Shown here: positions 38,778-41,742 of the stretch, one piece after another
Layout: every line of letters begins with the position of its first letter
Position numbering within the stretch: position 1 is the first letter of the stretch
From: Phycisphaerales bacterium
GTDB lineage: Bacteria > Planctomycetota > Phycisphaerae > Sedimentisphaerales > Anaerobacaceae
Length of the DNA stretch: 45,854 nt
Direction of reading: 5' to 3'
NCBI GenBank assembly: GCA_020352515.1
Contig: CP070678.1
Location: 5,034,575 to 5,080,428 of the forward strand
Made by a program: the position numbers and the translations under genes
Notes under the pieces: generated by a model
Seen by the model: only the letters and a program-made list of their open reading frames with translations
The model's database searches: none
Told to the model about the DNA's origin: nothing

Positions 38778-39053
38778 CTCAAATCTCCCAAAATAACAAC
38801 AATACCCGATTCTACCAACAAGCCATAGACTGTCGTATTCCAGGCCGACGACCTGCCTAATCCGCGTTCTTATACCGTATTACTATGCTCCGGACAAGCC
38901 TTTTCATCCCCTCTGGCCGCCCCTTCTTCACGGGAATATCTCGCGTTTGCCTGTAACCTTCTGACCCCCGGCGCCCACTATCCCAATGAAGAGCCTGTTG
39001 GAATGGCTCACGAAACCTGCAAAATACTTGCTTGTACCGAAAGGAGCAATGAA

Positions 39054-39941
39054 ATGACCAAAACCGCACGCAAGGTAATAATGGCGGCCGCGATAGCTGT
39101 AACAGTACTAACAGTGCACGTTTTTGCCAGCCCGGCCCGGCCCGGCCGCCCGGCGGGACGCGGACAAACGTTTGGGCTCGGCGCCCCCGGAGTACCTAAT
39201 CAGGCCAGGCCCCAAACGCCCTGGGCACGCGGCATGGGGCCATATTGCCCCTTCGGACGCGGCGGTGCAGCCGGAATGCTTGGAAGACGCGGCGGCGGAC
39301 GACGATGGAACGCCGGACCTCAAATGTTCGGTCAGCGCAATCGTATGCGTGGACGCGGCCGCGGCAGCCAAATCTTCGGCCGCCCCGGCCGGCGTTTCGC
39401 CCCCCGTGCCGCGCCCGGACGCGGCGCCTGGGGCAGAAGCGGTGCCGCAGCCCAAATACTTGGCGGACGCGCCGCAATGCGCGCGCAGCGTTTCGGACCC
39501 GGCGCCCCTGGCGGACGCGGCGCCATGCCTGGACGACGCGGTGGAGCCGGCGACTTTGTACGACCCGAACCAAGGCCCGGCCGGCGTGTCGGCCCGAGTG
39601 CACCCGACACGCCCGGCAAACCTGATGTCGGGCCCGGCCCCGCGGGCAGACCAGGTGCCATGCGCGGACGCGGTCCTCGAGCCGGCGCCTCTGCACAACC
39701 CGGCACAATGCGCGGCCGCGGCCTGGGACCCGGAACAGCAGCCGGGCCAGGCGGACTTGGTCGTCGCTCAGGCATGGTGCCAAGACCCGGTGGCATGGCT
39801 GGACGCGGTCCAGGACCCGGTGGAATGGCCGGACGCGGTGCGGGACCCGGCGGCATGGGAGGCTTCGGATTTCGCCGAGGACACCAGCGCCCAAATACGA
39901 ACGCTGAGGCCGAAGATGCCGGTGGAGACCCCAACCAGTAG
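39054..39941 (+). CDS. Exported Gly/Arg/Pro-rich low-complexity protein
   Basis: ATG 39054 follows AAAGGAG, giving 295 aa with a clear signal peptide (VIMAAAIAVTVLTVHVFASP). The mature chain is almost wholly Gly, Arg, Pro and Ala, with imperfect repeats: MRGRG, GPGPGGMAGRG (twice near the end) and QMFGQR/QIFGRP/QILGGR. It is strongly basic except for an acidic tail (AEAEDAGGD). It should be disordered and could bind polyanions such as acidic polysaccharide or be a matrix component. It lies on the same strand just before an ECF sigma operon. At the DNA level the octamer GGACGCGG recurs many times, which leaves long spurious frames on both strands. Confidence 0.7.
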   Translation: MTKTARKVIMAAAIAVTVLTVHVFASPARPGRPAGRGQTFGLGAPGVPNQARPQTPWARGMGPYCPFGRGGAAGMLGRRGGGRRWNAGPQMFGQRNRMRGRGRGSQIFGRPGRRFAPRAAPGRGAWGRSGAAAQILGGRAAMRAQRFGPGAPGGRGAMPGRRGGAGDFVRPEPRPGRRVGPSAPDTPGKPDVGPGPAGRPGAMRGRGPRAGASAQPGTMRGRGLGPGTAAGPGGLGRRSGMVPRPGGMAGRGPGPGGMAGRGAGPGGMGGFGFRRGHQRPNTNAEAEDAGGDPNQ

Positions 39942-40017
39942 CAATGATATGGCTGCCTGCGACGGAAGGTGAATCTTACGACCCGCACAGGCAATTGAAA
40001 TGTTGACCAATCCAAAC

Positions 40018-40055
40018 ACGGTCCCGCCGGCCGAGCCTCTCGCTGACGGGACCGT
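40018..40055. terminator. Stem-loop between the Gly/Arg-rich gene and the ECF sigma gene
   Basis: A 9-bp perfect inverted repeat, ACGGTCCCG (40018-40026) and CGGGACCGT (40047-40055), encloses a 20-nt loop that can form a small inner stem. No T-run follows on the plus strand, so it is not a classical intrinsic terminator. It may be a terminator of another type, an mRNA processing site or an operator. Confidence 0.4.
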
Positions 40056-40118
40056 TCGCCCTTGGACAAGAGCAAGAGACGAACCCAAGTATCTGGAAAT
40101 TCTGTTGATGGGTCAAAC

Positions 40119-40820
40119 ATGGCTATGTATCCTCTGAGTATGGTTCTACCACGTTCTCCATACCGGAACCTCGGCCTCCGGGCTCAAGGGTTCGTCGCCG
40201 AAATCCTCCAGGGTGCCCCTGAATCGTTCTCCGATGCAAATGAACCGGAAAACGCCGCCACAGAGGCCTTCGCCGACCTTGAGGACAGCCGACTGAGCCG
40301 CCAGGGCGACCCCGACGCATACCGACGTCTGATCGAGCGGCACCAGCAGTACATCGCGCAGATCATGTGGCGATTCAGCAGAGACCATCTCGTACATGAG
40401 GAGCTCGTACAGGATGTCTTTGTTGAGGCATACCTGAGCCTGCGAACTTATCGCGCAAAAGCCCCATTTGCCCATTGGCTTTCTCGAATAGCCACCCGCG
40501 TTGGATACCGCTACTGGAAACAAATCGCCCGACGCCAGGCAACCGAAAGCTTCACTCTCGAGCAATGGGACCAGTTGCCCGGCGAAGAGCCCGATAAAAT
40601 CGACCCGGCCCAGGCAGCTTCCCAGCTACATGCTCTGCTCCAACAACTGCCGCCTCGCGACCGTCTCGTCCTGACCCTGCGATATCTCGAAGAATGTGAC
40701 GTGGCAGAAACCGCCCGCAGGACCGGCTGGACAAAAACAATGGTTAAGGTCCAGGCCCTGCGTGCCCGAAAAAAACTGGAGAGACTCTTCCGTGAGAGCG
40801 GAAAGGAGTTGATACCATGA
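40119..40820 (+). CDS. ECF RNA polymerase sigma factor (second system)
   Basis: The start is uncertain (ATG 40119, 40125 or 40140, or a TTG at 40062); 40119 gives 233 aa. About 50 unrecognised residues precede sigma2 (DPDAYRRLIERHQQYIAQI, HEELVQDVFVEAYLSLRTY, APFAHWLSRIATRVGYRYW). Sigma4 has LPPRDRLVLTLRYLEECDVAETARRTG and MVKVQALRARKKLERLF. Its stop overlaps the next start by 4 nt (ATGA). The two following membrane proteins are its likely regulators or sensors. Confidence 0.88.
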   Translation: MAMYPLSMVLPRSPYRNLGLRAQGFVAEILQGAPESFSDANEPENAATEAFADLEDSRLSRQGDPDAYRRLIERHQQYIAQIMWRFSRDHLVHEELVQDVFVEAYLSLRTYRAKAPFAHWLSRIATRVGYRYWKQIARRQATESFTLEQWDQLPGEEPDKIDPAQAASQLHALLQQLPPRDRLVLTLRYLEECDVAETARRTGWTKTMVKVQALRARKKLERLFRESGKELIP

Positions 40821-41083
40821 ACCTCGAAGAAAAAATCAAAACTCTCGCAGCACGGGCCCGTGCCGAGGTCGTCCCCAGGGTGAATGTTGCCGGCGGTGTG
40901 CTCAATATCCTGGCACGGGAGCAGTCAGAGACACTTGTAGTGTATGAAAGACCCTGGATGTGGCTGGCGGCCGTCTCGTCCGCCGTTGCCGTGCCTGCCG
41001 CTGTGCTGGCGATAATTGTCTACTTGAAATCGGCCGATCCCGTAATGCAGGTCGTCCAGTCAATCTCGTGGGCCGTACAATGA
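40817..41083 (+). CDS. Small single-pass membrane protein, putative anti-sigma factor
   Basis: An 88-aa protein with a basic/amphipathic cytoplasmic N-terminus (1-45), one transmembrane helix (about 48-70) and an 18-residue outer tail. It overlaps the sigma gene and the next gene by 4 nt each. I recognise no domain. The position between an ECF sigma and a Spy-like protein, and the topology, fit an anti-sigma. GAAAGGAG lies about 9 nt before the ATG. Confidence 0.7.
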   Translation: MNLEEKIKTLAARARAEVVPRVNVAGGVLNILAREQSETLVVYERPWMWLAAVSSAVAVPAAVLAIIVYLKSADPVMQVVQSISWAVQ

Positions 41084-41742
41084 GTGAAAGAAAAGCTCCG
41101 GAAAATCCGACCGTCGTGTTACAGAAAATGCACCGATACCGCATGGCCTTCTTCGGTATGGTTATACTGCTCGCCGGCGTCGTGATTGGCGCCGCCTCGA
41201 CCGCAGTATACCTCCACGACAGACTCCCCACCGTGCCCCCCGGTCCGGGATTCCTAACCGGCAGAATGCTCGCCGGCCTCGAAGAACGCCTCGCGCTATC
41301 ACCCGAGCAGGCTCAGAAAATCAAGCCATTGGTCGAAAAACGATTTCAGATAATGCAGGACCTCCAGAATGAATTCCGCCCGAAATTTGGCGAGCAGTTC
41401 CGCCTCATGCACGAGGAGATCCTTGCCCAGCTCGACGAGCAGCAGAGGCAGCGCTGGGAGGAAGACCTGAAGAAAATGCAGGAGCATTGGCCACGCGGAA
41501 TGCGCGGCGGCCCTCGCGGTCCCGGCTCTCGGCGACCCGGTGGCCCCGGCGGCCCCGGCGGTCCGGGCGGCTCTCGTGGCCCCGGCGGCCAGTTCCGCCC
41601 GGATCAGGAACGACGCGAGGATTCGCGCCGGCCGTTCCCCGATGGCCAGCGCCGGCCCCCTCAGAGACACCGACAACATCCAAACGACCCTCCGGTCATC
41701 GTGCCCCGCCAAAAACCCGCCGACCCGGAACCGAACGAATAA
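41080..41742 (+). CDS. Membrane-anchored Spy/CpxP-like sensor with collagen-like tail
   Basis: A 220-aa protein from ATG 41080, overlapping the preceding stop. A transmembrane anchor (22-44) is followed by a periplasmic helical domain (68-133) like the Spy/CpxP/heavy-metal-sensor family: LALSPEQAQKIKPLVEKR and HEEILAQLDEQQRQRWEED. The last 80 residues are a Gly/Pro/Arg-rich tail with a run of GGP repeats (about 152-170) and a basic, Pro-rich end. Such sensors work with ECF sigmas in metal response (CnrYXH-type logic), so a sigma/anti-sigma/sensor trio is likely. The tail resembles the low-complexity protein at 39.1 kb. Confidence 0.75.
   Translation: MSERKAPENPTVVLQKMHRYRMAFFGMVILLAGVVIGAASTAVYLHDRLPTVPPGPGFLTGRMLAGLEERLALSPEQAQKIKPLVEKRFQIMQDLQNEFRPKFGEQFRLMHEEILAQLDEQQRQRWEEDLKKMQEHWPRGMRGGPRGPGSRRPGGPGGPGGPGGSRGPGGQFRPDQERREDSRRPFPDGQRRPPQRHRQHPNDPPVIVPRQKPADPEPNE

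Follow-up and report, generated by a model that had tools for sequence, protein, structure and literature searches.

A planctomycete ECF sigma operon with a Gly/Arg/Pro-rich exported partner: a possible autoregulated envelope-stress loop

Why would an ECF sigma operon lie directly behind a gene for a low-complexity exported protein rich in Gly, Arg and Pro, and what might such a system sense? The operon belongs to an uncultured planctomycete (genome G000, 5.84 Mb), whose nearest named relatives are MAGs of Sedimentisphaerales and Phycisphaerae. The window, i.e., the whole stretch of DNA that was analyzed (45,854 nucleotides), corresponds to bases 5034575-5080428 of this genome. Our preferred reading, to which we assign a probability of roughly 0.6, is an autoregulated envelope-stress ECF loop, one product of which is a soluble protein related to the loop's own sensor.

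The sigma operon and its upstream gene

Four ORFs lie in one direction on the forward strand. They encode an exported Gly/Arg/Pro-rich protein (39054..39941; 295 amino acids, with a signal-peptide-like N-terminus and an upstream AGGAG), an ECF sigma factor (40119..40820; 233 amino acids), a small protein with a single transmembrane helix (40817..41083; 88 amino acids) and a membrane-anchored periplasmic sensor (41080..41742). The earlier note on this DNA had described the last three genes as joined by two ATGA overlaps, and these are present at 40817 and 41080. The low-complexity exported protein that it had placed just upstream of them is likewise found as an ORF.

The sigma factor matches Pfam Sigma70_r2 (4e-11), Sigma70_r4_2 (1.6e-15) and TIGR02937 (3e-22), and regions 2 and 4 are the only sigma regions in the protein, as in ECF sigma factors generally (orthologue alignment A1). 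Among solved ECFs, CnrH is not especially close to it. The 88-amino-acid protein is a predicted CnrY-like anti-sigma factor. A 58-member alignment of its family (A4) has a conserved cytoplasmic P-x-V-D/N-V motif. One of the 58 members matches Pfam CnrY, at 0.006, and an hhalign comparison of the family with CnrY of pMOL28 gave an E-value of 0.004 over 54 columns, with a short motif in common.

We searched for the sigma factor in 61 relatives and in a scan of public genomes (65 loci), and analyzed 64 loci. The sigma factor, the ~88-amino-acid transmembrane protein and a helical, membrane-anchored third protein occur together in 60 of these 64. Of the closest relatives, 27 have enough DNA 5′ of the sigma operon for a comparison; the Gly/Arg-rich exported gene is directly upstream in 22 of them, and the remaining five have the operon without it. 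Under a strict automatic rule applied to all loci, the exported gene is found in 29 of 59. As a control, 350 kb of other flanking DNA contained four such ORFs. All four are in locus L100, where the promoter motif described below is also nearby, on the same strand as these ORFs. The earlier note had proposed to check whether the low-complexity gene is conserved together with the sigma operon. This is borne out, and we did not find the situation that had been named as speaking against it, in which the upstream gene is absent in relatives and no motif is shared.

The three-gene unit was also observed in MAGs labelled Armatimonadota, Zipacnadia, Desulfomonile and Desulfuromonadaceae (L087, L090, L093, L095, L096, L099, L100), which reflects either a wider spread or mislabelled bins. 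In a distant sigma branch (L044, L046, L047, L048), the genes for the sigma factor, the anti-sigma factor and a short, tail-less sensor are followed by genes for a TolC-like protein, a membrane fusion protein and a MacB-like ABC protein, which we named by eye from sequence. These genes of a MacAB-TolC type pump are apparently in one operon with the sigma factor, and they would also fit a role in envelope stress.

A promoter motif, a hairpin and a predicted regulon

Dyad counting in 36 regions upstream of exported genes identified TAAC-N17-CACT in 18 of them, compared to at most 6 in shuffles. The full motif, TGTAACCt-N15/16-CCACTATC (also written TGTAACCt-N15/16-cCACTATC), occurs in 29 of the 36 regions, nearly always 70-103 nucleotides from the ATG. 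Its spacing is TGTAAC-N17-CACT at 24 sites and N18 at 20 sites. The only zero-mismatch site in the window, TGTAACCTTCTGACCCCCGGCGCCCACTATC (38952..38982, forward strand), has TGTAAC as its -35 and CACTATC as its -10, and is located ~70-100 nucleotides before the ATG of the exported gene. Throughout the 64 loci (662 kb), 44 of 48 motif sites are just upstream of the sigma operon and on its strand, versus 5 sites in a backward control. In 27 sigma-bearing genomes, we found 21 sites and none in the backward control.

A search for a shared ECF motif upstream of 39054 and 40119 had been proposed. Such a motif is present before the exported gene, but there is none before 40119 in the window. In several loci that lack the exported gene, the motif is found before the sigma gene (L062, L064, L080, L082, L093, L096, L100), as expected for autoregulation. 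Its position thus agrees with the ECF feature of an autoregulated promoter with AAC in the -35, the AAC core being a hallmark of such promoters (PMC8103513). Judging from sequence, a specific ECF promoter motif ties the exported gene to the sigma operon, and the sigma factor of the window presumably reads the TGTAACC-N15/16-CACTATC promoter. A literature search for TGTAAC in papers on ECFs turned up nothing that matches the motif in full.

A stable RNA hairpin (40013..40056, forward strand; -25.7 kcal/mol) lies in the gap that separates the exported gene from the sigma gene, and is likely an attenuator or leaky terminator. Its folding energy stands out from shuffles (z -4.15 for 40005-40070). 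When 36 homologous gaps were each compared with 20 shuffles, the best hairpin was stronger than in any shuffle for 27 of them, and a T-run is often present in the relatives. The exported gene and the sigma operon are probably one transcription unit with partial termination at the hairpin. As 40119 has no motif of its own, the arrangement is most simply read as a single operon that yields much exported protein and little sigma factor.

A search of the window's own genome with TGTAACN{16,18}CACTATC gave three sites versus one in the control. These sites belong to the sigma-operon locus, an exported O-methyltransferase and a Gly/Arg-rich protein of the type II secretion operon. The looser motif TGTAACN{16,18}CACTD is at chance level in this genome (10 sites versus 13 in the control), so only strict sites were used. 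A fourth own-genome site (L115) is antisense near a two-component gene and probably due to chance. In genome G040, where the window-type sigma factor was not found, a motif-like sequence of the form TGTAACTggttgaggtttgccaNCCACTATC occurs as a dispersed repeat (L134, L139, L141, L142, L143). Most of the six motif sites of G040 look like this repeat and were set aside.

The O-methyltransferase gene preceded by the motif (L116/L146; Methyltransf_3 5e-28) encodes an exported, Gly/Arg-rich protein. Orthologues immediately follow the sensor gene in L030, L031 and L033, and are also preceded by the motif in G036 and G076. We observed a signal peptide and a Gly/Arg-rich N-terminal part in L116 (G000:C1:3646445 region), L030, L031, L033, L123 and L180. 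Export of the enzyme is thus predicted, even though cells synthesize its cofactor, SAM, in the cytoplasm.

In the type II secretion operon (L145; G000:C1:5306000-5321500, minus strand), which encodes GspE, GspF, pseudopilins, GspK and PilM/GspL, the motif precedes a gene for a Gly/Arg-rich exported protein that overlaps gspE. All seven genomes with a close GspE have, immediately in front of gspE, a gene for an exported helical protein that is rich in Gly and Arg (L145; L183-L188). The motif precedes this gene pair in the window's genome and, weakly, in G024, and is absent in the other five genomes that keep the pair. An exact motif is found before another gspE-gspF operon in G033, and a weak one in G031. 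In G062, G073 and G083, the motif precedes Spy-like or similar exported proteins. A further protein of the window's genome (L190; G000:C1:716826-717272) is exported and has three tandem LTXXQ-type units with no Gly/Arg-rich body. Its gene does not carry the motif, which means that being Spy-like is not enough for a protein to belong to the regulon.

The sensor and the exported product

The sensor consists of a transmembrane helix, a helical domain of the CnrX/Spy type, in which two L[ST]xxQ-like motifs occur, and a C-terminal tail. Its AF2 model (pLDDT 85) has helices at residues 10-48, 56-71, 75-117 and 120-136. Against PF13801 (Metal_resist), the window sensor scores 21.6 bits, below the cut-off of 29.2. 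The family is matched by 39 of 60 sensor orthologues (best 5.8e-9), and CnrX itself scores 91 bits. On the strength of its orthologues, the sensor probably belongs to Metal_resist, the family of CnrX, the window copy being sub-threshold when taken alone. A profile search of the PDB with the sensor placed Spy chains on top (E ~0.003). Foldseek and VIA-align searches with the model of the transmembrane helix and domain gave no fold match, only unrelated weak ones. A phmmer search of the sensor against the PDB returned mainly low-complexity or unrelated chains, and hhalign of the sensor family against CnrX alone found nothing.

The mature exported protein contains 76 Gly, 45 Arg, 37 Pro and 35 Ala among its 270 residues, and has a net charge of about +41. 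Its gene evolves fast yet is coding: changes among relatives concentrate in codon position 3. A Gly/Arg-rich exported gene is also present in a low-GC relative (L036/L069, GC3 ~0.4), so the gene is not a GC artefact. Long antisense ORFs over this GC-rich gene were rejected, since it is the sense frame that has the signal peptide, the ribosome site and the codon-position bias.

A Pfam search did not find PF07813 (LTXXQ) in the window's exported protein. It has no recognizable LTXXQ or EF-hand domains; what remains is the signal peptide, the body rich in Gly and Arg, and a GPYCP motif that it shares with L050 and L051. In several relatives, the same exported gene encodes an LTXXQ domain together with EF-hands. 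Both exceed the Pfam cut-offs in G016 (LTXXQ 35.5 bits; EF-hand_5 51 bits, with two EF-hands), and PF07813 is also found in G062 (54.5 bits). The window's exported protein is probably derived from such LTXXQ/EF-hand proteins.

The predicted structure of the G016 protein is a hooked four-helix domain. Its best solved matches include CnrX, with a TM-score of 0.75-0.78 by target length. Its Z-scores are 11.3 with NccX (115 residues), 9.2 with CpxP and 8.3 with Spy, values that can also arise fortuitously between helical bundles, and the E-values from Foldseek are weak (at least 0.06). The matches span the whole domain and agree with the sequence families. Because the G016 product matches CnrX, CpxP and Spy, and the sensor probably falls in the family of CnrX, the comparison suggests that the sensor and the ancestral exported product share one fold class. 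For the window's exported protein, which has lost the LTXXQ and EF-hand domains, the argument is indirect.

Proposed mechanism, alternatives and known systems

At rest, the 88-amino-acid CnrY-like membrane protein would hold the sigma factor, and the CnrX/Spy-type sensor would keep the complex off. A periplasmic signal, most likely an unfolded or damaged envelope protein or a metal causing such damage, would change the sensor and free the sigma factor, which would then use TGTAACC-N15/16-CCACTATC promoters. In the window, the exported protein would be driven strongly, and the sigma factor, anti-sigma factor and sensor more weakly, via read-through past the hairpin. Elsewhere, the sigma factor would drive the exported O-methyltransferase, and the Gly/Arg-rich protein together with the type II secretion operon. 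In its ancestral form, the exported product would have been a soluble domain of the sensor's fold class with EF-hands and Gly/Arg-rich chains; it might bind the sensor's ligand and thus quench the response, as CpxP, ZraP and Spy do elsewhere. CpxP and ZraP act in feedback on their own stress responses. In this scheme, we infer the direction of signalling, the ligand and the feedback. We are highly confident of the gene set, the promoter and the regulon, and regard the stress and feedback function as tentative, with a chance somewhat short of even.

The system might instead be metal-responsive in the strict CnrYXH sense: a transition metal would bind to the sensor, and proteins of the Gly/Arg-rich or EF-hand kind would serve as buffers for metal ions. 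The sensor's probable place in the Metal_resist family, the CnrY-like anti-sigma factor and the Ca-type EF-hands of exported relatives are consistent with this idea, and SigAb, which has the same gene order, responds to copper (PMC12153292). However, CnrX ligand patterns are rare among the 60 sensors (HxxxH in 2, HxxxM in 6), no His is invariant, and the window sensor does not have the commonest one. Moreover, neither the operon nor the DNA following the motif sites of the window's genome encodes an RND metal pump (cnrCBA-like). We therefore consider a strictly metal-binding sensor unlikely.

A sensor of the cell surface or matrix is the reading offered in the earlier note: the basic tail of the sensor and the exported protein would bind the same acidic polymer. 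Type II secretion would then help to build the surface. Both chains are indeed exported and rich in Gly, Arg and Pro, as had been stated, and the predicted regulon consists of exported products and the type II secretion operon. The tail (41488..41739; 84 amino acids) had been called collagen-like and basic; it is G/P-rich, but it matches no collagen family and is only mildly basic (17 K+R versus 9 D+E). Similar tails are present in most close orthologues and absent in the more distant short-sensor branch, and among the compared loci we saw no statistical association between a long tail and the exported gene (Fisher p 0.59, with only four short-tail loci). The CnrX/Spy fold class in sensor and effector points to an envelope-stress or metal-stress loop rather than matrix sensing, which we judge to be decidedly improbable.

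The tail could also imitate the exported Gly/Arg-rich proteins and act as a secretion gauge. Proteins that pile up in the periplasm, rather than leaving via the type II system, would displace the tail, free the sigma factor and raise expression of type II secretion. Such an ECF switch would measure its own cargo, although we see this as a long shot. That the promoter motif belongs to another regulator, with the exported gene a mere neighbour, is very improbable: the link between sigma factor and motif is one of position, yet in 42 loci the motif accompanies the sigma operon, preceding either the exported gene or the sigma gene, and its -35 has the AAC core typical of ECFs (PMC8103513).

The envelope-stress loop that we prefer would be a possible new branch of bacterial envelope stress control. 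Planctomycete ECF sigma factors are numerous and hardly studied in the literature that we searched. For one of them, a promoter motif has now been defined from sequence data, along with a small, coherent set of target genes and a sensor that can be put to the test. An ECF system in which the membrane sensor is paired with exported proteins of its own fold class, both bearing Gly/Arg-rich chains, offers a regulatory context for unannotated low-complexity exported proteins, and the association with type II secretion hints at what these proteins may serve.

Among known systems, CnrYXH of Cupriavidus metallidurans and NccYXH also have an ECF sigma factor, overlapping genes, a short single-transmembrane anti-sigma factor with a cytoplasmic VDV-type motif and a membrane-anchored sensor, which is of the Metal_resist family to which the window sensor probably belongs. 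The mechanism of CnrX, CnrY and CnrH has been described (PMC7689651, PMC4598750). The CnrYXH gene order is Y-X-H, whereas that of the window is sigma, anti-sigma, sensor. Unlike CnrYXH, sensors of the window type have no conserved Ni/Co ligands, and the window system adds a Gly/Arg-rich exported partner gene and a sensor tail.

SigAb-AabA-AabB of Acinetobacter baumannii (PMC12153292), compared by gene order and described architecture only, has the same gene order with overlaps, a small CnrY-like transmembrane anti-sigma factor, a third, periplasmic helical protein and autoregulation. Its promoter is GTCAAC/CGTT and its direct regulon is relA and small RNAs (PMC12153292), as opposed to TGTAACC/CACTATC and a predicted regulon of exported Spy-type proteins and type II secretion for the window type. 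Bacillus subtilis SigX shares the -35 TGTAAC, and its -10 is CGWC instead of CACTATC (PMC12153292).

In the enterobacterial Cpx/CpxP, Bae/Spy and Zra/ZraP systems, the response product is a soluble periplasmic protein of the LTXXQ fold, as it is here in relatives of the window's genome. Cpx, Bae and Zra are two-component systems, whereas the present system uses an ECF sigma factor, and the sensor itself has the same kind of domain.
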